A stretch of 51,333 nucleotides of DNA, from NCBI GenBank assembly GCA_025450815.1, contig JANWLO010000060.1, positions 1 through 51,333 of the forward strand, written 5' to 3'. This document shows, piece by piece, positions 588 through 18,819 of the stretch (positions are counted from its first letter, which is position 1; each line of letters starts with the position of its first letter). Both the position numbers and the translations under genes were made by a program. The notes under the pieces are model-generated. The model was given only the letters and a program-made list of their open reading frames with translations, made no database searches and was not told the origin of the DNA. The stretch comes from Gemmatimonadaceae bacterium. Lineage in GTDB: Bacteria; Gemmatimonadota; Gemmatimonadetes; Gemmatimonadales; Gemmatimonadaceae.

Positions 588-1931
588 TCAGAGATTCGGG
601 TTGTTGATCCGCTCCACATTCGGAAGTGGGAAACAGGATTGGTCGCCGTAGACACCGCCCGACACGTATGGCGCGCCGGTGGCAGGGGCGAGCGGCAGGT
701 TGAGGCGACGGATGTCGCCCAGCCGGTGGCCTTCGAGGAAGAGCTCGCGTTTGCGCTGCTCCACGATCTCGGCCATCACATTGGTCGCTGTCAGCGTGCC
801 GGGGTTGAACGCCGGCTGATGCGCCGCCGCGCGGAGCGCGTTAATGATCGTCTTCGCCGCGGGCAAGGCGCCCGTGTTCACGTCGTTCTCGGCGATTATG
901 AGCTGCGCCTCCGAGTACTTTGCGAGCGTCTGCAGTGAGGTCGCGGAAGCATCCTTCCTGGGAAGCCAGATCGGCGTGAAGCCATCGGAACCGATTGGGC
1001 CGAGGCTGTCGACCGCGATTCGCGCGTCCGCCGTGTCTCCCGGATTGGCGAATGATGCCCTGTACCGGTTGATAATCGACGTGTCCACCGACGAGAACTG
1101 CGCTTGGAGAATGTCGATGTAGACGAGATTCTGTCGCCGCGTTGCCGTGGCGTCGTGATCGATGTCGACCTCGAAGCCGGGCGGGATCAGCGCCGCATCC
1201 GCTGCCGCGGCTGCCGAGTTACCGAGGTCGAGCTCCGTGCGCGCTCGGCCGAGCAGTGCGAGGTTCAGTGTGTTCGCATCGCTCGCGCGCGTGGCGGCCA
1301 CCACCGCCGTGTCGAATCGCGTCATCGCATCCGCGAAGAGCTGCGCCGGAGTGAGCTCGGGGCCGAGGTCCAGCGCGGCTGAGCACATCCCCTCGCCGAG
1401 CAGCACGAGGCTGTAGCCACCGTATGCTGAGGCGACGCCGATCAGCTGGCTGCGGTCCGGCACCTGCGCGTCCGTCCAACCCTCCAGGTGCGCCACCGCC
1501 ACATCATTCGACGCGCGAGCGACAGAGAGCGGCGTATAGACGGCTCCGTACTGTTGCGAAGTGCAGTCGTCGGTACCGACCGCATCGTCCGCGGTGACCG
1601 TGCGGCGATCGAGATTGAAATTGAGCGTAGCCGAGATTGCATTCCTTAGCTCATCCACGAACTCGCCGCTCGTCGCGATGTACTGGTTGAACGCGCACTC
1701 GAAATCGCCACGAGAGCTGTTGACGATGAGGTCCGCATTCTCCGGCGCAAAGACGCCGGGCCCGAGCTGCCCCGGGTTCGACTGCTCGAGGGTCGTGATG
1801 TCGTGGCACGCCACTGCCGCCAGCGTCAGGGCAAGTCCCGCGACCGCGGCGCGCGCCGCGAGAATGTACCTGCTGCCGCGGCGAGTGGACCACACCGCCC
1901 GCGACGCTCTCTTCATCTGTGAGTTTCGCAT
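588..1931 (-). CDS. RagB/SusD family nutrient-uptake outer membrane lipoprotein
   Basis: 447 aa ORF with lipoprotein-like N-terminus (LALTLAAVACHD) and SusD-like C-terminus (EIVEQRKRELFLEGHRLGDIRRLNLPL); 2 bp downstream of SusC. Confidence 0.9.
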   Translation of the reverse strand: MRNSQMKRASRAVWSTRRGSRYILAARAAVAGLALTLAAVACHDITTLEQSNPGQLGPGVFAPENADLIVNSSRGDFECAFNQYIATSGEFVDELRNAISATLNFNLDRRTVTADDAVGTDDCTSQQYGAVYTPLSVARASNDVAVAHLEGWTDAQVPDRSQLIGVASAYGGYSLVLLGEGMCSAALDLGPELTPAQLFADAMTRFDTAVVAATRASDANTLNLALLGRARTELDLGNSAAAAADAALIPPGFEVDIDHDATATRRQNLVYIDILQAQFSSVDTSIINRYRASFANPGDTADARIAVDSLGPIGSDGFTPIWLPRKDASATSLQTLAKYSEAQLIIAENDVNTGALPAAKTIINALRAAAHQPAFNPGTLTATNVMAEIVEQRKRELFLEGHRLGDIRRLNLPLAPATGAPYVSGGVYGDQSCFPLPNVERINNPNL

Positions 1932-1933
1932 GG

Positions 1934-4900
1934 TCAGAAGGTCAGGTTGAGGGTGGCAACGAAACGGCTGAGCGGCGGAAGCACAGCCTGGTCCTGCGCA
2001 ATGAGGCCCGTCGGCACCTGATTCACCTCGGGATCCGGCCCGGTGTACTTGGTCCAGATGTGGAGCTCGCGAGCGGCGAGCGTGAACGACGCGTGCCGGA
2101 CTCCAGGAATGAGGTGATCGGGAAGTGAGTACGTCGCGGAGATCTCTCGCAGCTTCACGAAAGACGCATCCTGATAGAACTGGTCATCCTCCTGATTGAC
2201 GTAGGCGCCAACGTTGGCCTCCGCTATCAACAGTGGCGAGTACTTGGTCGGGTGATAGTTCATGTCGCATAGGCCGATCCCGATCAATCCCTGACAGCGG
2301 AGTTGGTCGACGGCGTTGGCCAGTCGATTGCCGTGCTTGAAGTCGACGAGTGCGTAAAGGCGGAGCTTTTTGAACAGCGTGAACGTGTTCGCGACGGAGC
2401 CCGTGCTCGTCGGTACCGCGGAGCCGATGAAGACGAACGGCGCGTTCGCGCAGTCGACCGGCGCGGCGCCTTTGCCGCCATCGCAGAGCACATTCGACGC
2501 TGCCCCCGTGGTGGGATCGATCGTTGCCGACACGACCTTCCGCGAAAAATAGGATTCGATGGGATTGCCGACGACGTTGGCCTGTCCGGCCGTGGTCACG
2601 AGCGACGGAATGCCGCCCAGACTGATGATCTTGTTCTTCGCCGTCGCGAAATTGCCGGTGATGTCCCAGGCGAAGTTGTGCATGTTGAGCACGTTCACGG
2701 TCGCCTGCAGCTCGATGCCGTGGTTGTTCACCTGGCCGAGGTTCTGGTACTGCGTGCCGGTGAATCCGAGCGACGGTGCGATGTTCTGTGCGACGATCTC
2801 GTTGGTCGTGTGCTTGTTGTAGTACGTGAAGTCGAGATGCACTCGGTGCCAGAGATCCGACTCGAAACCGGCCTCCAGCTCTTTTCCTCGTTCGGGCTTG
2901 AGGTCCGGATTGCCGAACGAGCCTGCCGTGAACGCATTGGAGCCCCCGGGCCCCTGCACCGGCAGGTAGGCGCGAAGCGCCGAGAATGCGAGTGGCGCGC
3001 GACCGGATTCACCGTACGCCGCGCGCAGCTTGAGCGAGTTGACGAAGCCCACGTGCCAGAATGGCTCCTCGTTCACGACCCACGTCGCGCCGAACTTGGG
3101 ATAGGTGATCCATTTGAACTGGTCGCCGAACGCGCTGTTGTTATCCACGCGCAACGCGGCCGTGAGGAAGAGCCGGTTGTTCCATCCGATCTCCTCCTGC
3201 GCGTAACCGCCGATCGTGGTGTTGATCGTGTCGCCCTGCGTGGACTGGATCGCCTTGGCGGTGCCGGAGACGGTGGTGATCCCGGGACCGGGGAATCCGA
3301 TGCCGCCCAGGAAGCTCTCGTGGATCCCCGTGCGGTACCATTGGCCGCCGAGTGACGTCGACGATGTGATCGACGGCGTGAGCGTGAACTTTGCCGTGCC
3401 GTTGTAGTCGAGTGACGTAACCGTCGTGCTCGTGAGCGTCTGGCCGATGCGGCCTGCCGCACCGCCGAGCGTGAACGGCGCGAGCTCCGGCGGCGCGAAC
3501 TTCTCGAGCCCTCGCCCGTCCTCGTTCGTGTAGTCCACTCCAACAATGGCTCGTTGCGTGAACCAATCCGTCGGACGATGGGTGAAGGTCGAGCTTCCCG
3601 TGAAGCGGTGGATACCGTCGCTGTTGTCGAACAGCGTCTGCGGCACCTCCGGGGGCACGTTCGGATAGAACCCGTCCGCGCCGGGAACGCTGAAGATGAG
3701 AGGGTGCGCGAACTCCGCACCGAGCAGCGCCGAGAGTCCGACGTCGACGCCCGTGTGGTAGGTACCCTGCACGTAGTTGAGACTCGTGCCGATATCGACC
3801 TTTGGCGTGGGCGCGAGATTCAGATTCGCGTGCCCGCTGAACTGCCGAATGGAGTTGTTCGGCTCGACGCCCTGGTCGTCTTCATAGTTTCCGGAGAGAA
3901 AATAGTTCGCCATGCCGAGTTGCCCGGAGAGCGATGCGTTGTACTGCCTCGCGTTGCCGGTGTTGAATACCGGCGTCCCAGCTTTCTCCTGTGCCGTGAT
4001 CGCATTGAAGCCAACGAGGTTGCCGTTGCCATCCGGGACGTAGTTGGTCTGAATGCGTCCCTCGGGATCACGGAAGTAGATGTACCCGTGCTGAATCTGC
4101 ACATCGAGCGTGGGCTTGGCCCCCCCGCCCTTCTTCGTGATGATCTGGATGACGCCGTTCGCCGCCTCGGTTCCATAGATCGTCGATGCCGCGGGACCCT
4201 TGATGATCTGGATGCTCTCGATCTCCTCCGGGCTAATGTCGTTGAGCCGCCCGACCACGCCAGCGTTCTGTGCGCCGTAGCCGCCGTTGCCGTTCGTCGT
4301 CGTGCCCCCTCCCACCCGATTGCTCACCCGGACGCCGTCGATGTAGATGAGCGGATTGTTGTCGAGACTCAGGCTCGACACGCCGCGGATGGTGATGTTC
4401 GGACTCGCGCCGAGGCGCCCGGTGCTGGGCGCGACGGTCACGCCTGGCGCGCGGGAGTTGAGTAGCGACCCCATGTCCGGCGCCTGCGACTCGGAGAGCA
4501 CTTGCGGCGCGTTCACTGACGACACGGCGTTGGGAATCTCGCGCCGCTGCTGCTCGCCCGGTGTTCCCGTGACGATCACCTCGTTGAGCGAGGTGGGTGC
4601 GCCCACGAGGACGAAATCGGCGGTGACTTCGGCATCAGCGGCCACGACGACCGTCCGGCGCTGTGCCACGTAACCGATTCGGCGGACGCTCAGCGTGACC
4701 GTACCGGGTGGGACGGCGAGGATCCGGTAGCGCCCGGCGGTATCGGTGACGGCGCCCAGTGGCGTGCCGTCCACGCGCACCGAGGCGCCTACCACGCCCA
4801 CCTTGGTACCCGCATCGGTCACCTGGCCAACGATGGAGGACTCGCGCCGCGCGGTTGCGGCAGTCGCGCCGTGCGGCGCGGTGCTCGCCGCGTGCGCAGC

Positions 4901-4990
4901 CGGCACGACGAACATCATCATGGCGGCCAGCGCAGTGCACTCCGCGAGCATGAACGCTCGATGCAGATGCTGACGTATTGTGTTTCGCAT
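1934..4990 (-). CDS. SusC/RagA family TonB-dependent outer membrane receptor
   Basis: Start placed at MRNTIRQHLHRAFML (signal peptide); carboxypeptidase-like regulatory domain (GQVTDAGTKVGVVGASVRVDGTPLGAVTDTAGRYRI), plug motifs (NITIRGVSSLSLDNNPLIYIDGVRV, IQIIKGPAASTIYGTEAANGVIQIITKKG), C-terminal beta-barrel. The upstream part of the listed ORF is out-of-frame artefact. Confidence 0.92.
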   Translation of the reverse strand: MRNTIRQHLHRAFMLAECTALAAMMMFVVPAAHAASTAPHGATAATARRESSIVGQVTDAGTKVGVVGASVRVDGTPLGAVTDTAGRYRILAVPPGTVTLSVRRIGYVAQRRTVVVAADAEVTADFVLVGAPTSLNEVIVTGTPGEQQRREIPNAVSSVNAPQVLSESQAPDMGSLLNSRAPGVTVAPSTGRLGASPNITIRGVSSLSLDNNPLIYIDGVRVSNRVGGGTTTNGNGGYGAQNAGVVGRLNDISPEEIESIQIIKGPAASTIYGTEAANGVIQIITKKGGGAKPTLDVQIQHGYIYFRDPEGRIQTNYVPDGNGNLVGFNAITAQEKAGTPVFNTGNARQYNASLSGQLGMANYFLSGNYEDDQGVEPNNSIRQFSGHANLNLAPTPKVDIGTSLNYVQGTYHTGVDVGLSALLGAEFAHPLIFSVPGADGFYPNVPPEVPQTLFDNSDGIHRFTGSSTFTHRPTDWFTQRAIVGVDYTNEDGRGLEKFAPPELAPFTLGGAAGRIGQTLTSTTVTSLDYNGTAKFTLTPSITSSTSLGGQWYRTGIHESFLGGIGFPGPGITTVSGTAKAIQSTQGDTINTTIGGYAQEEIGWNNRLFLTAALRVDNNSAFGDQFKWITYPKFGATWVVNEEPFWHVGFVNSLKLRAAYGESGRAPLAFSALRAYLPVQGPGGSNAFTAGSFGNPDLKPERGKELEAGFESDLWHRVHLDFTYYNKHTTNEIVAQNIAPSLGFTGTQYQNLGQVNNHGIELQATVNVLNMHNFAWDITGNFATAKNKIISLGGIPSLVTTAGQANVVGNPIESYFSRKVVSATIDPTTGAASNVLCDGGKGAAPVDCANAPFVFIGSAVPTSTGSVANTFTLFKKLRLYALVDFKHGNRLANAVDQLRCQGLIGIGLCDMNYHPTKYSPLLIAEANVGAYVNQEDDQFYQDASFVKLREISATYSLPDHLIPGVRHASFTLAARELHIWTKYTGPDPEVNQVPTGLIAQDQAVLPPLSRFVATLNLTF

Positions 4991-5022: not shown

Positions 5023-6777
5023 TCACTGCGTCATTCCAGCGGTCTCGCGCCACCCTGGTCCCCGCACCACGCGCCCCGGCTTTGCCCCCGTGTGCTTCCC
5101 ATCCCGAATCACTTCGGTGCCGTTCACGAAAACTTCGCGCACGCCCGTCGACGCCTGATTCGGCTTCTCGTACGTGCTGTGCTCCTGTATCGTCGCGGGG
5201 TCGAACACCACGACGTCCGCGTACATCCCCTCGCGAAGCAGCCCGCGATCCTTGATCAGCAGGCGATCGGCGACGGCGCCGCTCATCTTCCGGATCGCGT
5301 CCTCGAGAGTGAGCACGTGCTCGTCCCGCACGTATTTGCCGAGGATGCGCGGGTACGTGCCGTACGTCCGGGGATGCGTGAACTCCGTCATGCTGTCCGG
5401 ATCGGGACCATCGGCATCGGTGCCGATCTTGATCCACGGCTGCTTCAGCTGCATCGCGACGTTCTCGTCGCTCATGAGGAAGTAGATCGTCCCGATGTCC
5501 TGATGCTCCGTGAGCAGCAGATCCATCACGGCGCCCTGCCAGTCCTTCCCCGTCGCCGCCATCACCTCCGACAGGCGGTGCCCCGCCCACTTCTTGTTGT
5601 CGGGGTTCGTGAAAGCCGTGAGCAGCACGCCCTCCGGCGTGGCGAGCTCACACAGACTCTCGGCGTACATCTTCGGGTGCGCGATGTCCTCGCGGATCTT
5701 CGCACGCTTCGCGGAGTCCGCGAGATTCTCGAACAGCTTTCCGTCCGCCGATGCCGACGGCGGGAGACAGGCAGCGAGCCCGGTGCCGCCGGCCGTGTAC
5801 GGATACATGTTCGCCTGCACATCCATTCCCGCCGCGCGCGCCGAATCGATCTTCGCCACTGCCTGTGCCGCCTTCCCCCAATTCCGTTTTCCCGCCGCCT
5901 TGAGATGATAGATCTCGACGGGAACGTGCCCTTCCTGCCCGATGCGAATCGCCTCGTCCATCGCCTGGAGATACTGATCGGCCTCGGAGCGCATGTGCGT
6001 GATGTACACGCCGCCGTACGGCGACATCGCCTTCGCGATCTCAATGAGCTCCTCGGTGCTCGCGTAGTTCCCCGGCGGATAGATCAGCGCGCTCCCCAAC
6101 CCGAACGCGCCATCCTCCATGCCGCGCCGCATCGCCGCGCGCATCGAGTCGAGCGCGGCCGGCGGCGCCGCACCCATGTGCAGCCCCATCCCGAACTCGC
6201 GAATGGTGCTCGCGCCGACGAACGAGCCGACGTTGGGCGAGATGCCATGGGCCTGCATCGCGCGCAGCCACGCATCGAATCCGTGCGCGCCAGTGAAGCC
6301 GCGCACCAACGCGAGCGTCGCGGTGTCGCCGGCGAGATCGGCGAGGGTCAAGTTGCTCACCGGCGCATACGTGTACGCCTCGCCGAGGATCTCCGTCGTC
6401 ACGCCCTGCGTGAGCTTGCCCACGTCGCGACCGTCGCCCGCCAGGAACTGGCCGCCGGACTGCCCCTGGATGTCGATGAACCCCGGCGCGACGACCATCC
6501 CCGTCGCGTCGATGCGCTTCGTTGCGCGCGCGTTGCCGAGCTGGCCGCGCCGGACCACCTTCACGATCCGGTCGCCGCGGATCGCGACGTCACCGTAGAA
6601 CCAGGCGTTGCCGCTTCCGTCGACGACCCTGCCGTTCACGATCACGACGTCGTACGCGGCATCGGATGCGGGGCTCGGTGCCGAGTTTCCGCCTCCTGAT
6701 TTCGTCGCGCTCGTACAGGCCAGCACCCCCGCGGCCGTTACCAGAACGATCGTCCCTTTACCAAGAAGCTGGAGCAT
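5023..6777 (-). CDS. N-acyl-D-amino-acid deacylase (D-aminoacylase)-like amidohydrolase, secreted/lipoprotein
   Basis: Start at MLQLLGKGTIVLVTAAGVLACTS (lipobox-like LACTS); VVIVNGRVVDGSGNAWFYGDVAIRGDRIVKV, VVAPGFIDIQ, YITHMRSEADQYLQAMDEAIRIG, EIYHLKAAG; family-typical C-terminus. Confidence 0.85.
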   Translation of the reverse strand: MLQLLGKGTIVLVTAAGVLACTSATKSGGGNSAPSPASDAAYDVVIVNGRVVDGSGNAWFYGDVAIRGDRIVKVVRRGQLGNARATKRIDATGMVVAPGFIDIQGQSGGQFLAGDGRDVGKLTQGVTTEILGEAYTYAPVSNLTLADLAGDTATLALVRGFTGAHGFDAWLRAMQAHGISPNVGSFVGASTIREFGMGLHMGAAPPAALDSMRAAMRRGMEDGAFGLGSALIYPPGNYASTEELIEIAKAMSPYGGVYITHMRSEADQYLQAMDEAIRIGQEGHVPVEIYHLKAAGKRNWGKAAQAVAKIDSARAAGMDVQANMYPYTAGGTGLAACLPPSASADGKLFENLADSAKRAKIREDIAHPKMYAESLCELATPEGVLLTAFTNPDNKKWAGHRLSEVMAATGKDWQGAVMDLLLTEHQDIGTIYFLMSDENVAMQLKQPWIKIGTDADGPDPDSMTEFTHPRTYGTYPRILGKYVRDEHVLTLEDAIRKMSGAVADRLLIKDRGLLREGMYADVVVFDPATIQEHSTYEKPNQASTGVREVFVNGTEVIRDGKHTGAKPGRVVRGPGWRETAGMTQ

Positions 6778-6779
6778 GC

Positions 6780-8171
6780 CTAGACCGTGGTTGCGGAAGG
6801 AGGACCGAGACGCTCGTCGCGCCGCGAGCGCGCGCGCCACACGAAAAACGCAGGAGTGCCCAGCAGGACGACGCCAAGTCCTGCCGCCGCGCGCAGCGGC
6901 TGCGTGACGACAGTGTTGAGTACCAGCCCCGCGGCGGAGAGGACGAACAGCACCGGCGTGACCGGATAGCCGGGGACGCGGAACGGACGGTGCGCGTTCG
7001 GGAGTCGCCGCCGGTACACGAACACACTGAGCGCACCGAGCGCGTAGAAGATCCATCCGGTGAACACCACGAAGGTGAGCAGCTGCTCGAAGGTGCCGCT
7101 CACAGCCAGCACCGCGGCCCACAGCGCGGTGGCGATGATCGCGAACGCGGGAGTTCCGAAGCGGGCGCTGATGATCGCGAGCCGCCGGAAGAACACACCG
7201 TCGCGGGCCATCGCGAAGTACACGCGCGGCGCCGTGAGAATCAGCCCATTGGCGGCGCTGAAGATGGATATGAGAATCAGCGCGCCCACCACCATGCCGG
7301 CCGCGCGGCCAAGCACCACCGACGCTGCATCGGCCGCGATTTTCTCCGAATGCGACGCGGCGATGGGGCCGAGCGCCGCGAGATACGCGAGATTCACCAG
7401 CAGGTAGAGCCCGACGAGCGCCGCGGTCGCGACCGTGATCGCCAGCGGAAAAGTCCGTTGAGGATTGCGGGTTTCGCCAGCGGAGAAGGTGACGTATTGC
7501 CATCCCTCGTACGCCCAGAGCACGCCGATCATCGCCGCGCCCATTCCAACGGCGAGCGACGGCGAGAAGGACTCGGGCCAGTTGATCGCCGTCCCGCCGG
7601 GCGCTCGTCCGAACATGAGGAGCGCGGCGCTCAGGAGCAGCAACGCGCCCACCTTCGCACCAGTAGTCCAGTTCTGCAGAGTGGAGCTCTTGCGAGTGCC
7701 GCGAACGTTGATCGTCGCGATCACCACGATCACCAGCACCGACACGATGCGTGAGGCCGCGCGGCCGAGCGGGACGAACTCGGAGAGATACCCCGAGAAG
7801 GCGACGGCGAGAGTGGCCAGGGATCCACTCGCGATGACGAAAAAGCTCGTCCACCCGTAGAGAAAAGCCGGGAGCGCACCGAAGGTGTCGCGAATGTACA
7901 CGTATAGTCCGCCTGCCTCCGGCTTCATCGCACCCATCTCGGCGTACGTCAGCGCGCCGAGCAGCGAGAGCACTCCGGCGACGAGCCAAACGAGTAGCGC
8001 GGGCCCGCTCGCACCGCCTGTCTGTCGCAGCACAACGGCGGGCACGAGAAAGATCCCCGATCCGATGACGGTGCCCATGGCCAGGAGCGTGAGGTCGGTG
8101 ACGCCGAGCATCCGGCGCAACTCCGGCACGTGCGCCGCGGCATCCATCGGCGAATCGGTGAGGGCCGTCAT
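6780..8171 (-). CDS. APC superfamily amino acid permease
   Basis: Start at MTALTDSPMDAAAHVPELRRMLGVTDLTLLAMGTVIGSGIFLVPAVVLRQTGG; many hydrophobic helices; GTVIGSGIF motif. Confidence 0.9.
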   Translation of the reverse strand: MTALTDSPMDAAAHVPELRRMLGVTDLTLLAMGTVIGSGIFLVPAVVLRQTGGASGPALLVWLVAGVLSLLGALTYAEMGAMKPEAGGLYVYIRDTFGALPAFLYGWTSFFVIASGSLATLAVAFSGYLSEFVPLGRAASRIVSVLVIVVIATINVRGTRKSSTLQNWTTGAKVGALLLLSAALLMFGRAPGGTAINWPESFSPSLAVGMGAAMIGVLWAYEGWQYVTFSAGETRNPQRTFPLAITVATAALVGLYLLVNLAYLAALGPIAASHSEKIAADAASVVLGRAAGMVVGALILISIFSAANGLILTAPRVYFAMARDGVFFRRLAIISARFGTPAFAIIATALWAAVLAVSGTFEQLLTFVVFTGWIFYALGALSVFVYRRRLPNAHRPFRVPGYPVTPVLFVLSAAGLVLNTVVTQPLRAAAGLGVVLLGTPAFFVWRARSRRDERLGPPSATTV

Positions 8172-9043
8172 GACGGCGTACTCGACCCCAGCTGGAGCAC
8201 GTAGAACGAACGTCCGCTCGACTGATCGCGATGTAGTCCGGACACAGAGTAGCCGTTCCGCAGCGCCCACTGGAAATTCGCGCGGATGGCAGCATGCCAC
8301 ATGGCGACGGTGGCGTGCGAAGTGACGCGCTGGATGTCCGCGGGGACCTCGATCAGCAGTGCGGCAGGCCGGTCGGGCGAATCCAGGTGCGCGAGTGCAT
8401 CGCCCGCGTGAGGATCGGGGGTGAGAATGAGGCGAGTGCGCGCGCTCATCGCCTCGACGGGCGACGAGCCATTCGAGCGAACGGACTCGGGGTTGGTGGA
8501 CCACGAGACGATGAGCCGGTCCGTGGCGAGGCCGTGGTGCAGCGGGCTCGAAGTTGTGCCGTACATGTTTTCGACGTATTCGACGACGCGAGCGCCCAAC
8601 CGATTGAGGTTGAGATGCGCGTTCTTCGCCATGAGCGGGTCGAACGTCCAGTAGAGGGTGGAGACGCCGCGTCGCGCCAGCTCGGCGCGCTGGTAGTGCT
8701 TGAGCATCCGTCCGACGCCGGCATTGCGGGCAGATTCGCGAACGCCGAGCGCGTGCGACCAGTGGACGATCCCGCCGTCTCTGATGCCGGTGAGGCCGAA
8801 GACGAAGCCGACCAGCTCTCCATCCGCGGCGAACGCGCCAGCGATGATGCCGCCGACGTGAGCAACGACGTGGAGGAGCGACGCGGGGATGGCGTCGCCG
8901 TATTCCTCGCCCCAGACCTCCTGCTGCAGGTCGACGCACGCCTTGAACTCGGCGAGCGAGACGAGGGGGCGAATGGTGATATCCGCGGCGGTTTCAGCGA
9001 CGGCGGCGGCGGGAGCTGGGGAGCGGGAGGAGTCGATGGCCAC
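8168..9043 (-). CDS. GNAT-superfamily N-acyltransferase, COG3375-like (copy 1)
   Basis: ITIRPLVSLAEFKACVDLQQEVWGEEYG...GGIIAGAFAADGELVGFVFGLTGIRDGGIVHWSHALGVRESARNAGVGRMLKHYQR; overlaps the permease by 4 bp; clear paralogue of 16941-17819. Confidence 0.85.
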   Translation of the reverse strand: MAIDSSRSPAPAAAVAETAADITIRPLVSLAEFKACVDLQQEVWGEEYGDAIPASLLHVVAHVGGIIAGAFAADGELVGFVFGLTGIRDGGIVHWSHALGVRESARNAGVGRMLKHYQRAELARRGVSTLYWTFDPLMAKNAHLNLNRLGARVVEYVENMYGTTSSPLHHGLATDRLIVSWSTNPESVRSNGSSPVEAMSARTRLILTPDPHAGDALAHLDSPDRPAALLIEVPADIQRVTSHATVAMWHAAIRANFQWALRNGYSVSGLHRDQSSGRSFYVLQLGSSTPS

Positions 9044-9101
9044 GATGCGCGGGGTGCGGGGACCAGCGGCTGAATCGCGGGACCAACATAGGACGCGGTC
9101 C

Positions 9102-9111
9102 GGTATACCAC
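9102..9111. promoter_or_regulatory. Candidate GntR-family operator (GGTATACCAC, site 1)
   Basis: 8 bp perfect palindrome GGTATACC within ccGGTATACCac, in the divergent GNAT1/GntR intergenic region; same 10-mer occurs at 17906-17915 upstream of the paralogous GNAT2. Confidence 0.5.
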
Positions 9112-9214
9112 AATGGTGGACCGTTCACGCCGAAACGGGCGGCTGACACGCGTCCCCCGCAGCGCGTCGCCGCTGCTTGCGCCATCTCCCCCTACCCCGT
9201 ATCGTTGCACGATC

Positions 9215-10036
9215 GTGCAGCGAGCCGCAGCTCTCCCCAGGAAGAACGCCGCCCGCCCACGCCGGCCGAGCGAACGCCACGCCGACTCCGGTGAGCGGCT
9301 CGATAACGTCTCCCGCGCTTACCACGACCTTCGGAGCGTGATCGTCTGGGGACAGCTCCCCCCCGGATCGCGCATCTCCGAGCGCGTCATCGCCGAACGC
9401 CTCGGGCTGAGCCGCACACCCGTGCGTAGCGCCCTCCACCGCCTCGAGCAGGAAGGATTCATCGCTTCCGCCGGCCAGGGTCGCGAGCGCCGGCTCATCG
9501 TCGCCCCCCTCACCCTGGATGACGGCGAAGAACTCTTCCAGATCGTCGGACACCTCGAGGGGCTCGCAGCTCGCACCGCCGCGATGCTACCGCCCGCGCG
9601 CCGCAGAGAGCTCGCTTCCCAAATGCGCGAGCTCAATCGCGAGCTGGCTACGCAATCGCATAATCGCGGCGCCGCCGCGCGATTCTTCGAGCTCGATCTC
9701 CACTTCCACGAGACGTACGTGAACTCCGTGGTCGGCCCCCGCCTGCTCACGCTGCATCGAGCCATCAAGCCGCAGTGCGAGAGGTACACGCGACTGTACG
9801 TGAGCGTGCTGCTGGATGAGCTGCCGACCTCAGTGAAGGAACACGAGGTCATCGCCGCCACTATCGCCCGCGGTGATCCCGACGCCGCGCAGGCCGCTGT
9901 GGAGACGAACTGGAACAACGCCGCGGCGAGACTCGCACGCATCATCGCTCAGCACGGCGAGCGTGGAAGCTGGGCCGGCGCCCGCGACGACGAACGCCCG
10001 GCGCCGCGCTCGCGCTCGGGAGCACGAGCGCGCTAG
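9215..10036 (+). CDS. GntR family transcriptional regulator, FCD domain
   Basis: wHTH AYHDLRSVIVWGQLPPGSRISERVIAERLGLSRTPVRSALHRLEQEGFI plus FCD-like helical domain (HLEGLAARTAA...FELDLHFHETYVNSV...VKEHEVIAATIARGDPDAAQAAVETNW). Start uncertain: GTG 9215 chosen, ORF open from 9113. Confidence 0.85.
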   Translation: MQRAAALPRKNAARPRRPSERHADSGERLDNVSRAYHDLRSVIVWGQLPPGSRISERVIAERLGLSRTPVRSALHRLEQEGFIASAGQGRERRLIVAPLTLDDGEELFQIVGHLEGLAARTAAMLPPARRRELASQMRELNRELATQSHNRGAAARFFELDLHFHETYVNSVVGPRLLTLHRAIKPQCERYTRLYVSVLLDELPTSVKEHEVIAATIARGDPDAAQAAVETNWNNAAARLARIIAQHGERGSWAGARDDERPAPRSRSGARAR

Positions 10037-10041: not shown

Positions 10042-12381
10042 ATGTTCCGCGCACGCATCCGCTCCACCCTCGCCGCACTGTTTGGACTCGCCGCGATTGC
10101 CGGCGCCGCGCGCTCACAATCGCGCGCCGCGACCATCGAACCCGACAGCCAGCACGCTCCCACGGTCGCGTTCCTGACCCAGGCGATCACTCAGGAGATG
10201 CGCGATCTGCAGCTGCCGGCCCTCTCAATCGCACTCGTCGACGGCAACCGTATCGTGTGGGCACGCGGATTCGGCACCTCCGACTCGGCGCGCCACCTCA
10301 GCGCGAACGCGGAAACCGTCTATCGCGTGGGCGCAGTCTCGTCGCTCTTCACTGTGCTCGGCGTCATGCAGCTCGCGGAACGGAAGCGAATCGATCTCGA
10401 TTCTCCCGTAACGCGCTATCTACCGAACTTTCATCCGTCGAATCCGTTCGGCACGACGATCAGTGTCCGCCAGCTCCTGTCACAACGTTCCGGGCTCGTG
10501 CGCGAGCCGCCGGTCGGTGGCTACTCCGATACCACCGCGCCGTCGCTGGCCCGAACCGTGATGAGCCTGAACGCGACGAGCGTCGTAGTGGCACCCGGAA
10601 GTCGCGTGAAGTACTCGAATGCCGGAATGGCGACCGCCGGATACGTTATCGAGCGCGTGACGCGCCAGCCATTCGCATCGTACGTCGCTCGAAACGTGCT
10701 CGCCCCGATGGGGATGCACGAGAGCGCGTTCCAGCCAACGACGGCGCTCGAATCGCGGCTCGCCACCGCGTACCTCTGGACGTACGACGGCCGTCGCATC
10801 ACCGCTCCCCGCTTTCGGCCAGGCGAATCGCCTGCCACCGGACTCTATACCACCGTCACTGACCTGGGCCGTTTCATGTCCGCAACGCTCGCGGCGCCGG
10901 GAGCGAAGGACGACGTCGGCTTTCGCGTCGACACCCTCGACGGGATGCGCGAGCTCGCGCAGGAGGGATCCATTTACGGATTCTCCTCCGCGCTACAGAT
11001 GCTTCCCGGCGAGCGGCTGGGGGTAGTCGTCATCACGACGCTCGATGCAACCAACACCGTAGCCGCGCGCATTGCCAAATCCGCTCTTCGTGCGATGGTC
11101 GCGTCCAGGCGGAAGGCGCCGATGCCCTTGTGGGTCACGACCACTCCGGTAGCAGCGCGCGACGCCGCGCGACTCGAGGGACGCTACACCACCGGGGACT
11201 CTGCCATCGAGCTCACGTATCTCACCGCTCCCTCGGACAGCGATGCGAGTGCGGCGCAGCTTGTCGAGCGATCGACGGCTGGTGGTACGCGCGGCACGCT
11301 CCGCCTGCTTGGCGACACGCTCGTGCGCGACGATCGGCTTGGATTCGGCACGCGACTCGTGCCGCGTTCCGACACGCTGATCGCCACGTCACGGAGTTTC
11401 GTCCGCGAAGCTGACGCCAAGCCCTCCGGCACTCCGCCGCAGCTCCGGCGGCTCGTTGGCGAGTATGGCTGGGATCACGACATCCTCTACATCCTGGAGG
11501 ATCGAGGCCGTCTCGACGCGCTCACTCGCTGGTTTTATCAGTCACCCCTCGAGCGCACATCCGATTCGACATTCCGCTTCCCTGTGGGGTCGCACTTCGA
11601 TTCCGAACCGGTCGTCTTTGCATTCGACGGCGCCGGCGCGGTGACCGGACTGCGGATCGGTGGGCGCTGGCTCCCTCGGCGCGCGATCGGCCCCGCCTCC
11701 GGAAATCAGCTTCACGTGACGCCCGTGCGGCCGATAGCCGATCTCGAGAGCGAGGCGCGAGCGGCCACGCCGCCTCGCGAGACGCCGCATCCGCGCGCGG
11801 CCGACCTCGTGGAGCTCGTGTCGCTCGACAGCACCATTCACCTGGAAATTCGCTACGCGACGACGAACAACTTCCTGGGCACGCGCTTCTATCCGCAGGC
11901 GCGCGCATTTCTCGAGCGCCCGGCAGCCGAGGCGCTGGTGCGCGCGCATCGCGCACTGAAGAAGTCCGGTTACGGCATTCTCGTCCACGACAGTTATCGG
12001 CCATGGTACGTGACGCGGATGTTCTGGGATGCGGTTCCGGCGGACAAGAAGATCTTCGTCGCGGACCCAGCGGATGGCTCGCGCCACAATCGCGGCGCGG
12101 CCGCCGACATCTCGCTGTACGACCTCGCCACCGGCAAGCCGGTGGACATGGTCAGCACGTACGACGAAACGTCGGACCGCGCGTTCGCGAACTATCCGGG
12201 CGGTACGTCGCTCGAGCGCTGGCTTCGCGCACTCCTGCGCCACGCCATGGAGGCCGAGGGCTTCACGGTGTATCACGCCGAGTGGTGGCACTTCGACTAC
12301 AAGGGGTGGAACGAGTACCCGATTCTCAACATCCCTTACGACCAGATTCCGAGCGGAGTTACTGCTCCCCGGACACCTTGA
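10042..12381 (+). CDS. Fusion protein: serine-hydrolase (beta-lactamase/PBP-like) domain plus C-terminal VanX-type D-Ala-D-Ala dipeptidase
   Basis: N-terminal signal peptide; PBP-like fold sequence (YRVGAVSSLFTVLGVMQLAERKRIDLDSPVTRYLPNF, KYSNAGMATAGYVIERVT); C-terminal SRHNRGAAAD (matches SxHxxGxAxD) and EWWHFDY of the M15D/VanX family; 5 bp after the GntR gene. Confidence 0.85.
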   Translation: MFRARIRSTLAALFGLAAIAGAARSQSRAATIEPDSQHAPTVAFLTQAITQEMRDLQLPALSIALVDGNRIVWARGFGTSDSARHLSANAETVYRVGAVSSLFTVLGVMQLAERKRIDLDSPVTRYLPNFHPSNPFGTTISVRQLLSQRSGLVREPPVGGYSDTTAPSLARTVMSLNATSVVVAPGSRVKYSNAGMATAGYVIERVTRQPFASYVARNVLAPMGMHESAFQPTTALESRLATAYLWTYDGRRITAPRFRPGESPATGLYTTVTDLGRFMSATLAAPGAKDDVGFRVDTLDGMRELAQEGSIYGFSSALQMLPGERLGVVVITTLDATNTVAARIAKSALRAMVASRRKAPMPLWVTTTPVAARDAARLEGRYTTGDSAIELTYLTAPSDSDASAAQLVERSTAGGTRGTLRLLGDTLVRDDRLGFGTRLVPRSDTLIATSRSFVREADAKPSGTPPQLRRLVGEYGWDHDILYILEDRGRLDALTRWFYQSPLERTSDSTFRFPVGSHFDSEPVVFAFDGAGAVTGLRIGGRWLPRRAIGPASGNQLHVTPVRPIADLESEARAATPPRETPHPRAADLVELVSLDSTIHLEIRYATTNNFLGTRFYPQARAFLERPAAEALVRAHRALKKSGYGILVHDSYRPWYVTRMFWDAVPADKKIFVADPADGSRHNRGAAADISLYDLATGKPVDMVSTYDETSDRAFANYPGGTSLERWLRALLRHAMEAEGFTVYHAEWWHFDYKGWNEYPILNIPYDQIPSGVTAPRTP

Positions 12382-14614
12382 ACTGCTTGTTCAGGTAGTC
12401 CACCGTGGCGGAGTCCGCCATGAGCCACGAGTGATATCGCAGAAAGCCGTGAATCTCATCCGGGATCACGAGCTCCTCGAACGGAACCCCCACCGCCTGC
12501 AGCCGTCGCGCGATGTCCACCGTTTGGTGGAACGACACGTTCCGATCATCGTCGCCCTGAATCAGAAGTACTGGGCTTTTCCAGGTGGCCATCGACGCGA
12601 CCGGCGATGACGCCCACGCTACGTCCATCGCGCGCTTGATGTCGCCCTTCTCGTAACGCGACTGCTCATCGGTGAAGTAGCGCCCGATGTCGGCCGCCCA
12701 GTCGTGCACGCCGTGGAAATCCACGCCGGCCTTGAACACGTCCGAGTTGCGGGCAAGAGCGAGCGCAGTGAGATATCCGCCATACGAGCCGCCCCAGATG
12801 CCAATGCGCGATGCATCCACCTCGCGCAGCGCGCGCAGGTATGCCGCGCCGGCCTGCACGTCCTGATACTCCGATGCGCCCCACGGTCCAGCGTGCGCCG
12901 GATTGTGGAATCGCTCTCCATAACCAATGCCGAGCCGATAGTTCACCGACAGCACGACATAGCCGTGGTTCGCGAGATACTGATTCACTGCGTACCCGTT
13001 CGAGTAGTAGTTCATGTAGTGCCAGCCGAGCAGCATCTGACGCGGCGGGCCGCCGTGGACGAAGATGATGCCCGGCTTCTTCGCGCTCGCCGTTGCTCCC
13101 GCTCGCGCGAAGAGTTGGCCGTGCACTACGGTTCCGTCTGCGGCGCGAAAGACGACGGGCTTCGGAATTACGAGCTCCGATTCAGGGAAGCTCTTCGGCA
13201 CGACCTCGCTGCCAATGGCGCGAACGGCGCCTCCGGCAATCGGGACCACCATCGGGAGAGGAGAGCGCTGCGCTCCGGCGCCGATGAAGGCGACGGTGTT
13301 GCCATCACCAGTGATCAGCGGCTGCCACTCGAGTCCATCGCCCGGTGTGAGAGCGACCGGTACCGCGCGGTCGGCGGGCACTGAGTAGAGATGGCGCCGG
13401 TCGAAGTCACCAGCGCTGGTTCCGGTGTTCGCGTTGTAGACGATGGTGTTGCCGTCGCGGGACGTGGTGACGTACTCCACCATGAATTTCCCGGGCGTCA
13501 GTAGCGTTGGCGTGCCACCCGCGTCCGGAATCGAGTAGAGGTGCGGCCATCCGTCGAGCGTACTCAGAAAAACGATGCGACCACTCGTGCTCCACGACAG
13601 ATTCGCTTCACCAGCGGTGTTGGGAATGGAACCGAGCAGCGTGTTCGGGCTCTTCCACACTGCGTGGCCTTCCCTTGTCGCCACATCCGCTATCCAGATG
13701 GCCCACGGCGCGGGATGCCGATCGAGCAAGGTCTCCGGCGCTCCGCCCGTTCCGGGCTGCCGTACGAACGCGATGCGCTTTCCGTCGGCTGACCAGCGTG
13801 GCGAATCATCGTGCGAAGTGGAGGGCGCGAGATATTCGATCGGCGCGGAATCGGATGTAAAAACGCCAATGAAACTGTGGTCACCGCGATCGGAGACGAA
13901 GGCCAGACGGTCTCCCGACGGCGACCATACCGGCGATTCACTCGCGCCGCGCGCGAAGAACAGCTGCTTCGGCGAAGCCGAGCTGTCGAGCGTCGCGATC
14001 CATATCTGATGGTCCTTCGTGAACGCGACGCGATCGCCGCGCGGCGAAAGCACGGGCTCGTCGCCATCGGCGATGAGCTTAGGCTGCTGCGGCTTCTCAC
14101 CGGCGAACGAAGCGGCCCAGATCTCCACCTTTGGCTGCGCTGCGAGATGCGCCGGGTCAGGCTCCAGTCCGCCCTCGGCCGGCCAGTTGGCGTCGTGATC
14201 GCCGCCACGAACGTACACGATGTATTTGCCGTCGGCGCTGATCGAGAGCTGCGTGAGCTCCTGTCCGTCATCGGCGCGATAGTCAGTGATCTGACGCGCC
14301 TTGAAGTCCGGACCCTCGGCCGCCCAAACGTTGCGAACGCCTTGCTGATTGAATACCCACGCCATGCGAGCTCCCGTGGGCGCCGCGGTGAGCTCCTCGG
14401 TGTAGGTGTAGCTGAGGATCTGTTCGAGCGTGAACGATCCGCTCGCCGTTTGCGCAGCTGCGGCGCCGGCCGCGAGAGCCAGCGCGGAGAGAATCCAGCA
14501 CGCACGCATCGGTACGCTGAAGCGGGCATGCGCCCGCGGAGTCACGATCGAAAGTCCCATTTCTTCCTCTGAATCCGAAGAGTGTGTAGCGTTGAATTGT
14601 CGTTTGTCGCGCAT
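12359..14614 (-). CDS. S9 family peptidase (prolyl oligopeptidase / acylaminoacyl-peptidase type)
   Basis: beta-propeller-like repeats followed by alpha/beta-hydrolase with GIWGGSYGGYLTALAL, VLLIQGDDDRNV, EIHGF. Confidence 0.9.
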   Translation of the reverse strand: MRDKRQFNATHSSDSEEEMGLSIVTPRAHARFSVPMRACWILSALALAAGAAAAQTASGSFTLEQILSYTYTEELTAAPTGARMAWVFNQQGVRNVWAAEGPDFKARQITDYRADDGQELTQLSISADGKYIVYVRGGDHDANWPAEGGLEPDPAHLAAQPKVEIWAASFAGEKPQQPKLIADGDEPVLSPRGDRVAFTKDHQIWIATLDSSASPKQLFFARGASESPVWSPSGDRLAFVSDRGDHSFIGVFTSDSAPIEYLAPSTSHDDSPRWSADGKRIAFVRQPGTGGAPETLLDRHPAPWAIWIADVATREGHAVWKSPNTLLGSIPNTAGEANLSWSTSGRIVFLSTLDGWPHLYSIPDAGGTPTLLTPGKFMVEYVTTSRDGNTIVYNANTGTSAGDFDRRHLYSVPADRAVPVALTPGDGLEWQPLITGDGNTVAFIGAGAQRSPLPMVVPIAGGAVRAIGSEVVPKSFPESELVIPKPVVFRAADGTVVHGQLFARAGATASAKKPGIIFVHGGPPRQMLLGWHYMNYYSNGYAVNQYLANHGYVVLSVNYRLGIGYGERFHNPAHAGPWGASEYQDVQAGAAYLRALREVDASRIGIWGGSYGGYLTALALARNSDVFKAGVDFHGVHDWAADIGRYFTDEQSRYEKGDIKRAMDVAWASSPVASMATWKSPVLLIQGDDDRNVSFHQTVDIARRLQAVGVPFEELVIPDEIHGFLRYHSWLMADSATVDYLNKQFKVSGEQ

Positions 14615-14620
14615 GACGAG

Positions 14621-15811
14621 TCAGTACGGATGGCGCGCGCCCACGCGCGCGCACTCGGCCAGCACCGCCGCGCCGATGAAGAGCGCGCCCTCCGCCGCGT
14701 AAAACGCTGGCGAGTGTGCTGGAATCGCGCGAGTGCCGGGCTCGCGCGCGCCGACGCGCATGAAGCAGCCCGGCATGCGCTCCATGTACATCGCGAAGTC
14801 CTCACCGCCCATGTTCATGTTGGGGAGCGCGACGAGCGCATCGAGACCGAGCACGTTCGTGACGGCCTCGCGCGCGGCAGCAGCGATCTGCGGGGGATTC
14901 ACGATCGGTGGCGTACCAGCGGAGAGCTGAACGGAGGCCGTGAGGTCGTAGGCCGCGGCCATTGCCTCCGCCATGCGCCGCAACTCCGTGCCGAGCAGAG
15001 TGCGCGCGGCGGGCGTGGTCGCGCGGATCGTTCCGGTAAGCTCTGCACGATCGGGGATGACGTTCGATGCGCTTCCCGCGACGATGGTTCCTACCGTGAC
15101 GACGCCTGGCTCCGCCGGATCGAGCCGGCGCGATACTATCGTTTGCAGCGCACCGACCAGCGCAGCGGCACCGACGATGGGATCGTGAGATTCGTGCGGC
15201 CGCGCACCGTGCGCGCCTGCGCCCGTGACGATGATCGTGAAGCTGTCCGTGGACGCGGCGAGCGGTCCCGCCTGCGCAACCACCTGTCCGACATCGAAGC
15301 GCCGGTCGACGTGCCCACCGAAAATCATCTGTGCGTCGTCGAGAGCGCCGCTCTCGAGGACGGCGGCGGCGCCCTCGCCCAGCTCCTCCGCGGGCTGAAG
15401 GATCACGAGAACATCCCTCTCCGCCGGATTCGCTACGAGCAGCCGAGCGGCACCCACCGCCCACGACGCGTGCACATCGTGACCGCACGCGTGCATCACA
15501 CCGGGAGTCTCCGAAGCGAAGTCGAGTCCCGTGGCTTCGGTGATCGGTAGCGCATCGATGTCACCGCGAAGTGCGATCGCCGGCCCGCTGCGCGTGCGTC
15601 CGGGGACGCGCGCAACGAGTCCCGTGCGAGCGACGCGCGTTACCTCGGTGATGCCCAGCTCCTGAAGCGCGCGCATGAGGCGAAGCGCGGTGGCTTCCTC
15701 CTGCCAGGAGAGCTCGGGGTGACGATGCAAGTCGCGCCGCAGATTCACGAGCGTCTCCGCAACCCCGCCGCCAAAAAGCTGGCGCACCGATTCCGGCACG
15801 TCCACCGTCAT
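14621..15811 (-). CDS. M20 family amidohydrolase (N-acyl-L-amino-acid hydrolase type)
   Basis: Start at MTVDVPESVRQLFGGG; NLRRDLHRHPELSWQE, GDIDALPI, HACGHDVH, QPAEE, GGEDFAMY motifs. Confidence 0.88.
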   Translation of the reverse strand: MTVDVPESVRQLFGGGVAETLVNLRRDLHRHPELSWQEEATALRLMRALQELGITEVTRVARTGLVARVPGRTRSGPAIALRGDIDALPITEATGLDFASETPGVMHACGHDVHASWAVGAARLLVANPAERDVLVILQPAEELGEGAAAVLESGALDDAQMIFGGHVDRRFDVGQVVAQAGPLAASTDSFTIIVTGAGAHGARPHESHDPIVGAAALVGALQTIVSRRLDPAEPGVVTVGTIVAGSASNVIPDRAELTGTIRATTPAARTLLGTELRRMAEAMAAAYDLTASVQLSAGTPPIVNPPQIAAAAREAVTNVLGLDALVALPNMNMGGEDFAMYMERMPGCFMRVGAREPGTRAIPAHSPAFYAAEGALFIGAAVLAECARVGARHPY

Positions 15812-16944
15812 GCCAGAAGCGTCTGCGTGCGGACCGTCAGGTCGTCGATTCTGTTCACATCCACGGCGACGCCGATTCCGGGCCCGTCGGGCACGCGCAC
15901 CATCCCGTTCGCATCCATCGTCCACTCCGGCGTGACGATGTCGCGAGTCCAGTATCGGGCGCTCGGGCTCACATCGCCTGGCTTGGTGAAGTTGGGCAGC
16001 GATGCCAATGCGACGTTGTACGCGCGGCCGACGCCGCTCTCGAGCATCCCGCCGCACCATACCGGAATGACGTTCCGCATGCAGAGATCGTGAATCGCAC
16101 GCGACTGCTGAAAACCGCCCACGCGTCCCGGCTTGATGTTTATTATGCGCCCGCTCTGCAGCGTGATCATGTCTTCAGCGCGATCCACGCTCGTTATGGA
16201 CTCATCGAGGCAGATAGGAGTGCGCAGAATTCGCTGCAGCTCGGCGTGCCGCACGAGATCGTCGTGCGCAAGCGGCTGCTCGATCATCATCAGCCCTAGT
16301 GAGTCCAACTGAGCGAGATGCGCTGCATCGGCGAGCGTGTAGGCGTTGTTGGCATCGGCCATGAGCGGGGCCTGCGGAAATTTCTCTCGCACTGCGCGAA
16401 CATATTCGATGTCGTGCCCGGGCTCGATCTTTATCTTCACCTTCTGATATCCCTGCGCGAGCGCCCGTCCTGCGCGCTCCACCAGCGCGGCTGGAGAGTC
16501 CTGAATGCCGAGCGAAATGCCCGTGGCGATCTCGGCGCGCGTTCCACCCAGTAGCTTGGCGAGCGGCACGCGCGCCTTTTCCGCGAAGACGGCCCAGATC
16601 CCCATCTCCACAGCCGCCTTCGCCATTTCGTGGCCGCGAAAGTTGTGCTGCAGCGCAGGGTGTACGTGCTCGGGATTCGTGAAGGTAGTGTTGAGAACGC
16701 GCGGTGCGATGTACTCGACGGTGGTGATCCACGCGGTGTCGATGGTCTCGGAGGTGTAGTTCGGCGCCTCGCCGGCGACGCACTCGCTCCAGGTCGTAGT
16801 CCCATCGGTGTCTCGCAGCTCGAGCAGCATGATGCGCCGATCGGTGCACACGCCGGACGAAATGCGGAACGGCTCCTTCAGCGGCAGGCCGATCTCCCGC
16901 AGGGTGAGGCGATTCAATCGGACCTCGTTCGTGGTACCGGTCAT
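15808..16944 (-). CDS. Enolase-superfamily N-succinylamino acid racemase / o-succinylbenzoate synthase-like protein
   Basis: Start at MTGTTNEVRLNRLTLREIGLPLKEPFRISSG; catalytic/metal motifs QKVKIKIEPG (KxK), LMADANNAYT, MMIEQPL, CLDESI, INIKPGRVGG; 4 bp overlaps with both neighbours. Confidence 0.88.
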   Translation of the reverse strand: MTGTTNEVRLNRLTLREIGLPLKEPFRISSGVCTDRRIMLLELRDTDGTTTWSECVAGEAPNYTSETIDTAWITTVEYIAPRVLNTTFTNPEHVHPALQHNFRGHEMAKAAVEMGIWAVFAEKARVPLAKLLGGTRAEIATGISLGIQDSPAALVERAGRALAQGYQKVKIKIEPGHDIEYVRAVREKFPQAPLMADANNAYTLADAAHLAQLDSLGLMMIEQPLAHDDLVRHAELQRILRTPICLDESITSVDRAEDMITLQSGRIINIKPGRVGGFQQSRAIHDLCMRNVIPVWCGGMLESGVGRAYNVALASLPNFTKPGDVSPSARYWTRDIVTPEWTMDANGMVRVPDGPGIGVAVDVNRIDDLTVRTQTLLA

Positions 16945-17819
16945 GTCTCCGTCGCTCGTAAAGTGTAAAAGCACCGCCCTGAATCAGGAGCGGCGGCAAA
17001 TCCTGCCACGCGGTATCCTCGTTCGAGATACCAGGTGAACGCGCGACGCGTGGTCGTGCGCCACGCCAGTGCAATATCGGGGGTGTTCGTCATCACCGCC
17101 TGTATGTCGGATGGAATTTCGACGCGGACTACCGGATCGTCCGGCAGATCCAACTGCTCGGGTGCCGATTGGCCCCCGCTCGAATTGACGATCGCTGGAC
17201 CGCGCACGGGATCGGCAGTGATCGATTCGTCCGCGATCGGCCGTTCCCGCGTGTCTGGCCCCAAGTCCCAGGCGACGACCCATCGGTCCGTTCCAAGATC
17301 CCCGTGCAGAGTGCTTCCGGTGTCCTCTCCGTAGAAGTCGATCACGTACTCCGCGGCCCGTGCGCCGAGCCGCATGAGATTGAGGAAGGCGTTGCGCGCG
17401 ACGAGCGGATCGTACGTCCAGTACATCGTGCGAATACCCATAGCGCGAAGCAGGTCGCGCTGGAAGAGCTTGAGCCGGCGCCCGATTCCGCGGTCGCGCG
17501 CCTCGCTTCGCACGGCGAGAATGTCGGACCAGTGTCCGAGCTCCCCGTCGATCACGCCCGTGAGCCCGAACACGAATCCAATGAGGGAGCCGTCATCTTC
17601 GAACGCGCCGGCGACGACACCTCCGACGCGCTGCGCAATCGTGAGGATCACGGTCGGGACCGTGCCCGTATAGTCCGCGCCCCAGATCTCGTGCTGCAGG
17701 TCGACGCACGCCTCGTACTCGGCGTTGCTCGACACGCGGCGAATCGTGATTCCGTCCGGCCCGCGAGTGGCGGCCCCCTCCTCTTCCAGCGACTTCCGGT
17801 ACGCGATGCGCTGCGTCAT
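16941..17819 (-). CDS. GNAT-superfamily N-acyltransferase, COG3375-like (copy 2)
   Basis: ITIRRVSSNAEYEACVDLQHEIWGADY...GGVVAGAFEDDGSLIGFVFGLTGVIDGELGHWSDILAVRSEARDRGIGRRLKLFQR; overlaps the racemase gene by 4 bp. Confidence 0.86.
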   Translation of the reverse strand: MTQRIAYRKSLEEEGAATRGPDGITIRRVSSNAEYEACVDLQHEIWGADYTGTVPTVILTIAQRVGGVVAGAFEDDGSLIGFVFGLTGVIDGELGHWSDILAVRSEARDRGIGRRLKLFQRDLLRAMGIRTMYWTYDPLVARNAFLNLMRLGARAAEYVIDFYGEDTGSTLHGDLGTDRWVVAWDLGPDTRERPIADESITADPVRGPAIVNSSGGQSAPEQLDLPDDPVVRVEIPSDIQAVMTNTPDIALAWRTTTRRAFTWYLERGYRVAGFAAAPDSGRCFYTLRATET

Positions 17820-17903: not shown

Positions 17904-17915
17904 GTGGTATACCAC
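17904..17915. promoter_or_regulatory. Candidate GntR-family operator (GTGGTATACCAC, site 2)
   Basis: 12 bp perfect palindrome in the divergent GNAT2/CPBP intergenic region; shares GGTATACCAC with 9102-9111; a further partial half-site (CATACCA) follows. Confidence 0.5.
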
Positions 17916-18003
17916 TTCAGCATACCAAAAACGAATATTGCCCGCCGGCGCCACACGCGCAAGACTCCCCTCGCCACAGCCTCCCCCCGAACCCCATCCA
18001 CGA

Positions 18004-18819
18004 ATGCAAGAGACTCGATTCACGCCACGACTGAAACGGGAGCTCGCCACCTTCCTCATCCTTACCTTCGCATTCAGCACCGTCTTCTACGTCATACTCG
18101 GATCCGCCAAAACACTGAACCTCGGCGGCGGCCGCTACGTGTTGATGCTCATGTGGTGCCCCGGTGTCGCCGCCATGATCACGCGACTGATCTTTCAGCA
18201 CAACCTCCGCGGCGAAGGATGGCGCCCGGGTAAGATCCGATTCCTGCTCCTCGGCTACGCACTCCCGATCGCTTACGCCTCGGTTGCCTACGTCGTGGTA
18301 TGGCTCACCGGATTCGGCGCGTTCGACTCGAGCCGATTTCACACCAGCCCGCTCCGGTTCATCGCCCTCGGCACCGTACTCAGCATCACATCCGCGCTCG
18401 GTGAGGAACTCGGATGGCGCGGCTTTCTCGTCCCGAAATTGGCCGAGGGAACGACGTTCACTCGCACCGCGATCGTGAGCGGCTGCATCTGGGCAGCCTG
18501 GCACATGCCGCTCATCATCCTCGCCGACTACAACGGCGGGACGTCGGTTCCGTACTCCATCGCGTGCTTTGCGGTAATGGTGCTCGGGATCAGCGTCCCC
18601 ATGGCGTGGCTCCGTCTGCGATCGGGAAGCGTGTGGCCCGCTGTGCTTCTGCACGCGAGCCACAATCTGTACATCCAGGGTTATTTCGACAACGTCACGA
18701 TGGACACGGGCATCACTAAGTATTTGACGGGCGAGTTCGGAGCTGCTCTCGCGGTCACGGCGGTGATCACGGGATTCATTTTCTGGCGACTCCGGAGCCG
18801 ACTCGCCTTGGCATCGTGA
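18004..18819 (+). CDS. CPBP (CAAX-like) family intramembrane metalloprotease
   Basis: Multi-TM protein with ALGEELGWRGFLVPKL, AAWHMPLI, HASHNLYIQG motifs; start at MQETRFTPRLKRELATF. Confidence 0.85.
   Translation: MQETRFTPRLKRELATFLILTFAFSTVFYVILGSAKTLNLGGGRYVLMLMWCPGVAAMITRLIFQHNLRGEGWRPGKIRFLLLGYALPIAYASVAYVVVWLTGFGAFDSSRFHTSPLRFIALGTVLSITSALGEELGWRGFLVPKLAEGTTFTRTAIVSGCIWAAWHMPLIILADYNGGTSVPYSIACFAVMVLGISVPMAWLRLRSGSVWPAVLLHASHNLYIQGYFDNVTMDTGITKYLTGEFGAALAVTAVITGFIFWRLRSRLALAS

Follow-up and report, generated by a model that had tools for sequence, protein, structure and literature searches.

We have analysed a stretch of DNA of 51,333 nucleotides from a Gemmatimonadaceae bacterium (Gemmatimonadota), contig C60 (JANWLO010000060.1) of the host assembly GCA_025450815.1, here called the window, in which two tightly packed minus-strand operons, A and B, flank a GntR regulator gene and a VanX-like gene. 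Our data favour, with reasonable but not strong confidence, the reading that both operons form one GntR-controlled regulon that scavenges D-amino acids or small D-amino-acid-containing peptides and N-acyl compounds. The unit itself is real and conserved, and its assignment to such a pathway is likely. Directly established are the gene content, the co-localisation of the genes, a motif shared by the two operons, an assembly with no need of an o-succinylbenzoate synthase (OSBS), and intact motifs in the N-succinylamino acid racemase (NSAR) and in the M15D domain of the VanX-like protein. In Geobacillus kaustophilus a GNAT, an NSAR/OSBS enzyme and an M20 enzyme reportedly form a D-to-L amino-acid pathway, attributed to Sakai and colleagues in 2006. 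By analogy, we conclude that the present unit would work like this GNAT/NSAR/M20 route, as a new importer-coupled variant of it.

Organisation of the two operons

All genes named in a preliminary description of this DNA were recovered in frame, on the strands claimed, tightly packed and with the overlaps given there. Family assignments are Pfam/NCBIfam profile matches, and lipoprotein and signal-peptide calls come from N-termini judged by eye. Operon A (minus strand) is ordered GNAT1 (8168-9043; PF00583, 20.8 bits), an APC-superfamily amino-acid permease (6780-8171; PF13520, 190.8 bits), a predicted lipoprotein amidohydrolase that is D-aminoacylase-like with a non-canonical metal site (5023-6777; D-aminoacylase structures in the PDB matched at E 7e-78), a SusC/RagA TonB-linked outer-membrane transporter of a cluster-associated subfamily (1934-4990; TIGR04056, 423 bits, above cut-off), and, completing the SusC/SusD pair, a SusD-family outer-membrane lipoprotein (588-1931; PF07980, 38.7 bits, above cut-off). 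Operon B, on the same strand, consists of GNAT2, the NSAR-paired N-acyltransferase (16941-17819; PF00583, 21.9 bits), an NSAR/OSBS-family racemase of the enolase superfamily (15808-16944; TIGR01928, 334 bits), an M20 amidohydrolase predicted to be an N-acyl-L-amino-acid deacylase (14621-15811; TIGR01891, 340.5 bits, above cut-off), and, as its final gene with weak membership, an S9 prolyl-oligopeptidase-type peptidase (12359-14614; PF00326, 137.1 bits). Overlaps of 4 bp join GNAT1 to the permease, GNAT2 to NSAR and NSAR to M20, and the gap between amidohydrolase and SusC is 32 bp.

Between the operons, on the plus strand, lie the GntR/FCD regulator (9215-10036; PF00392 and PF07729) and a fusion of an S12 domain to an M15D VanX-like DD-dipeptidase domain (10042-12381; PF00144 and PF01427), which is probably exported. 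The frame of the regulator is open from an ATG at 9113, and the GTG at 9215 is probably the likelier start, judging from the extent of the alignment of homologues. GNAT1 and GNAT2 are paralogues with 45% identity, both barely above the Pfam GNAT cut-off, and a sequence search gave no solved-structure relatives for the GNAT.

Conservation and co-localisation

We compared 60 NSAR neighbourhoods of 20 kb each, taken phylum-wide, with 40 control regions of the same genomes. A GNAT was present in 57/60 neighbourhoods, an M20 enzyme in 48, the amidohydrolase in 15, SusD and GntR in 14 each and an APC permease of at least 300 bits in 8 (p 0.014), against 0/40 controls in every case. SusCD, APC, GntR and the M15D protein lie together with the pathway genes or carry the candidate operator described below. 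S9 and CPBP genes showed no significant enrichment in this comparison, and neither is supported as a conserved part of the unit. Gene order varies widely from locus to locus, and unsupervised clustering of the open reading frames of the 60 neighbourhoods returned recurrent families that are mostly the window's own gene set. GNAT, NSAR and M20 are found together across Gemmatimonadota, and the NSAR-GNAT pairing is also found in KSB1, Ignavibacteria, Acidobacteriota and Bacteroidota.

In addition, 61 genomes of the family were searched with each window protein, and matches lying no more than 15 kb from a GNAT/NSAR locus were counted. These comprised 12 of the 15 members of the SusC subfamily (43-100% identity; 0.16 expected), 23/36 GntR homologues (0.36 expected), 10/24 members of the APC orthologue group (0.23 expected) as opposed to 0/34 APC paralogues, and 19/46 members of the amidohydrolase clade (0.45 expected), in genomes that are kin, so that the events are not independent and p-values overstate their independence. 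Chance clustering was ruled out by the control regions together with the coordinate tests.

The comparative evidence supports the view that operons A and B, which the preliminary description had already taken to belong together, are one regulon and not two units, since a single-run version exists and the operons have a candidate operator in common. In the single-run version, carried by one relative (L080), the order GNAT-NSAR-M20-APC-amidohydrolase-SusC-SusD stands beside a divergent GntR gene, with 50-73% identity to the window proteins. Operon A, GntR and the S12-M15D gene are found together in the sister genome G317 (contig L150; 61-85% identity). In genome G033 the APC and amidohydrolase genes are separated by contig ends, and the same contig, C71, runs on to CPBP and GNAT2-NSAR-M20 (L151, L152), so the two operon parts may neighbour each other there too.

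A candidate GntR operator

The palindrome TNGTATACNA was found upstream of both operons. Allowing at most two mismatches, a scan of the window gave only two sites, CCGGTATACCAC at 9100-9111 in the GNAT1-GntR interval and GTGGTATACCAC at 17904-17915 upstream of GNAT2, each upstream of one operon. The 10-mer GGTATACCAC, which both sites share, has no further occurrence in the 2.94-Mb assembly, while its reversed control pattern has zero matches there; the 10-mer was chosen from the two sites, and the test is therefore of uniqueness and not of presence. GTATAC falls in the 300 bp before GNAT in 20/31 loci that also have a GntR homologue nearby, compared with 10/101 loci lacking one and 4/510 control upstream regions, and most of the sites upstream of GNAT resemble TNGTATACNA. 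A GntR helix-turn-helix domain, an FCD domain and a palindrome at the target promoters are all present, and these sequence features suggest that the regulator binds the TNGTATACNA palindromes.

Six SusCD modules away from NSAR, later picks made by APC or SusC similarity alone, have GTATAC just upstream of SusC in five cases (L256-L259 and L268; not L260). Several are APC-SusC-SusD-(S12-M15D) runs, and the VanX-like fusion would therefore be part of the regulon. Among the loci without NSAR, L258, L259, L260, L261 and L268 are APC-(SusC-SusD)-(S12-M15D) modules, several with a GTATAC site. We regard such NSAR-less APC-SusCD modules as a detached uptake module.

Probable periplasmic hydrolases and the permease

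The fusion protein has 779 residues, with a beta-lactamase-type S12 domain joined to the M15D domain. Peptides containing D-Ala are substrates of M15D enzymes and of many S12 enzymes. The idea of a VanX-like dipeptidase holds to the extent that the M15D motifs SRHNRGAAAD (SxHxxGxAxD) and EWWH (ExxH) are intact and that the gene recurs with APC/SusCD, beside which fusion relatives are found, or with the operator. It does not hold for a plain VanX, since the domain is fused to S12 and falls below the equivalog cut-offs for DdpX-type or VanX enzymes (132.5 bits against 176, and 73.4 against 320). SxxK is retained in the S12 domain of 8 other fusion relatives; the sister genome copy L151 has the catalytic Ser and Lys.

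The amidohydrolase belongs to the fold family of D-aminoacylase, N-acyl-D-glutamate deacylase and OngB, and has kept both metal His residues as well as the catalytic Asp. In D-aminoacylases (subtype V, metal site Cys/His/His with HxH) the metal-site Cys and HxH are defining, and both are needed in OngB (PMC12017989). The clade of the window enzyme differs, having Glu for the Cys and QxQ, QxH or less for HxH, and the D-aminoacylase label given earlier is accordingly supported in part at most. The enzyme is probably active and mononuclear. Many copies of the clade with Glu for Cys and QxQ for HxH were seen in Gemmatimonadaceae.

Predicted pathway and alternatives

In the predicted pathway, SusC and SusD would take up the substrate through the outer membrane, D-amino acids would be set free in the periplasm by the S12-M15D fusion and the lipoprotein amidohydrolase, and the APC permease would move them into the cytosol. 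There GNAT1 and GNAT2 would transfer an acyl group, probably that of succinyl-CoA, to the amino group of the D-amino acid, NSAR would interconvert the N-acyl-D and N-acyl-L forms, and an L-selective M20 enzyme would strip off the acyl group, making the net conversion of D to L irreversible. GntR would sense a ligand of the pathway and bind the TNGTATACNA palindromes before both operons. Regulator binding, the localisation of the proteins and each enzymatic step are all predictions. We put forward more tentatively the fuller proposal, for Gemmatimonadota and some relatives, of a dedicated SusCD uptake of D-amino-acid compounds or peptides, in which the S12-M15D protein would hydrolyse D-peptides alongside a novel Glu-site amidohydrolase, and which would feed the N-acyl racemase route. 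If true, this would be a first class of outer-membrane importers that handle D-amino-acid compounds, and would make D-amino acids usable as nutrients.

Several points weigh against the D-amino-acid regulon, in addition to the kinship of the genomes counted above. The amidohydrolase of the window lacks the subtype-V metal Cys (aligned Glu) and HxH (QxQ), and the majority of its clade sits away from GNAT/NSAR loci. The S12 domain of the window is without its catalytic Ser and Lys, having AxxS for SxxK (10321-10360; GAVSS for GSVSK), and the APC permease scores as an L-type or general amino-acid transporter, far above its score with the model for D-Ala/D-Ser/Gly transporters. The operator site of operon A fits the palindrome completely in one half only, G317 carries GNAT2-NSAR-M20 on a separate contig (L034) from operon A, and the completeness of the host assembly is only 68.5%. 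Finally, the substrates, the D-to-L direction and the acyl donor are assigned by analogy with the G. kaustophilus pathway, and the stereospecificity is a prediction. Peptidoglycan as the specific source, as had been proposed earlier, gains no support from the general type of the permease, and no recycling genes were recognised among the recurrent neighbours with an annotation or among the recurrent unannotated neighbour families checked by Pfam.

The regulon could instead salvage, in both configurations, N-acyl-amino acids from outside the cell or ordinary peptides, with NSAR inverting the D fraction and D-amino acids being a side stream. NSARs are promiscuous toward N-acyl substrates (PMC7431475), the amidohydrolase belongs to an acylase superfamily and operon B ends in an S9 peptidase, all in line with this alternative. 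A CoA-dependent N-acyltransferase would, however, be superfluous for a pre-acylated substrate, yet a GNAT is present in 57/60 neighbourhoods, and the S12-M15D fusion, of families acting on D-Ala-containing peptides, recurs in the regulon; we therefore consider such a salvage system unlikely. Operation from L to D, yielding D-amino acids for the cell wall, for signalling or as a product, is conceivable in that NSAR is reversible and D-succinylases exist (PMC7431475), but the presence, under one operator, of importers of the outer and inner membrane together with hydrolases that are probably periplasmic makes a catabolic layout, and this direction appears decidedly improbable.

Operon A might also import an unrelated nutrient, for instance a chitin-derived N-acetyl sugar acid, and merely adjoin the NSAR operon. 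The GlcNAc1A deacetylase OngB, of the same fold, is among the PDB matches of the amidohydrolase (PMC12017989), and several APC-SusCD modules lie away from NSAR. Against this, members of the GNAT1 clade (support 1.00) go together with SusCD or APC, and one of them is, in L080 (genome G025), the sole GNAT both of the NSAR operon and of the genome, which ties the GNAT of operon A to the NSAR route. Together with an operator that is common to both operons and unique, and with 12/15 SusC relatives near GNAT/NSAR, this leaves an unrelated operon A with very little probability.

The racemase and menaquinone

The nearest solved structures to the racemase are N-acylamino acid racemases (E ~1e-95), and K170, K172, D197, E222, D247, K271 and R274 are invariant among 110 sequences, which gives the KxK and second Lys bases and the D/E/D metal ligands of the NSAR/OSBS subfamily. 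R274, three residues after the second catalytic Lys, is presumably an NSAR-specificity residue. The 4-bp overlaps and the conserved trio also provide the gene adjacency of the GNAT/NSAR/M20 pathway.

The host carries two futalosine-pathway PF02621 genes, on C7 and C132, and no MenD above cut-off was found in its 68.5% complete genome; within the limits of this assembly, the OSBS/MenC role of the racemase is thereby ruled out. Among the family genomes sampled, only G192 and G247 have MenD, with a fragment in G197, and all of these are without PF02621, which suggests that the classical menaquinone pathway replaced the futalosine pathway within the family. That the racemase is a MenC for menaquinone with unrelated neighbours, as its top NCBIfam name (TIGR01928, o-succinylbenzoate synthase) would have it, is extremely improbable in view of these genes and of the conserved neighbours. 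The host's other strong enolase-superfamily gene (C25) is not MenC or MenD, being sugar-acid-dehydratase-like and beside a pyruvate-oxidase-like enzyme.

In Deinococcus and Sulfitobacter loci (L170, L171, L172), GNAT-adjacent NSARs are annotated as menC or o-succinylbenzoate synthase. This label on GNAT-adjacent NSARs is a probable systematic misannotation.

Relation to known systems

The G. kaustophilus pathway and the window have in common the three enzyme families, their gene adjacency and the presumed chemistry, and the G. kaustophilus NSAR/L-succinylase tandem has been used to make L-amino acids (PMC7431475). The window adds operator-linked SusC/SusD and APC genes, the divergent amidohydrolase, the S12-M15D fusion, a second GNAT and GntR. 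Loci on Deinococcus radiodurans MP1 and Sulfitobacter plasmids likewise combine an NSAR-GNAT pair with small-molecule importer genes, but these are ABC importer components and not SusCD and APC, and M20 is missing there, while it is present in the D. ficus locus. Coupling of this chemistry to an importer is thus a general theme. As in SusCD nutrient-uptake loci for polysaccharides and peptides, the SusC-SusD pair shares its operon with degradative enzymes and has a local regulator; the window differs in that no carbohydrate-active enzymes were found in the operons, in its predicted D-amino-acid or D-peptide cargo and in its GntR/FCD regulator.

Literature searches found no description of such an import-plus-conversion unit, in agreement with the preliminary description, which had not recognised one. 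The GNAT/NSAR/M20 chemistry is known elsewhere, and it is the importer-coupled unit, which brings an importer, a permease and a regulator of its own, that seems undescribed. D-amino acids build up in soils and sediments, and little is known of their use by abundant uncultured soil bacteria. Our analysis predicts an uptake-and-inversion regulon in Gemmatimonadota, with a candidate GntR operator and a SusCD subfamily of predicted non-glycan cargo, and also a physiological role for NSARs that are routinely annotated MenC, including those of organisms making menaquinone otherwise.

Other features of the window

A PADLOC search gave zero matches and hence no link to a defence system, and a search for sigma-70-like promoters gave no match, a result that carries no weight either way. 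The gene at about 18004-18819 encodes a CPBP protease and lies outside the unit. Further on, 22116-32313 (minus strand) holds in a row a proline dehydrogenase, an M14 carboxypeptidase, a DPPIV-type S9 peptidase and a second SusD/SusC pair, which is likely a proline-peptide utilisation run.

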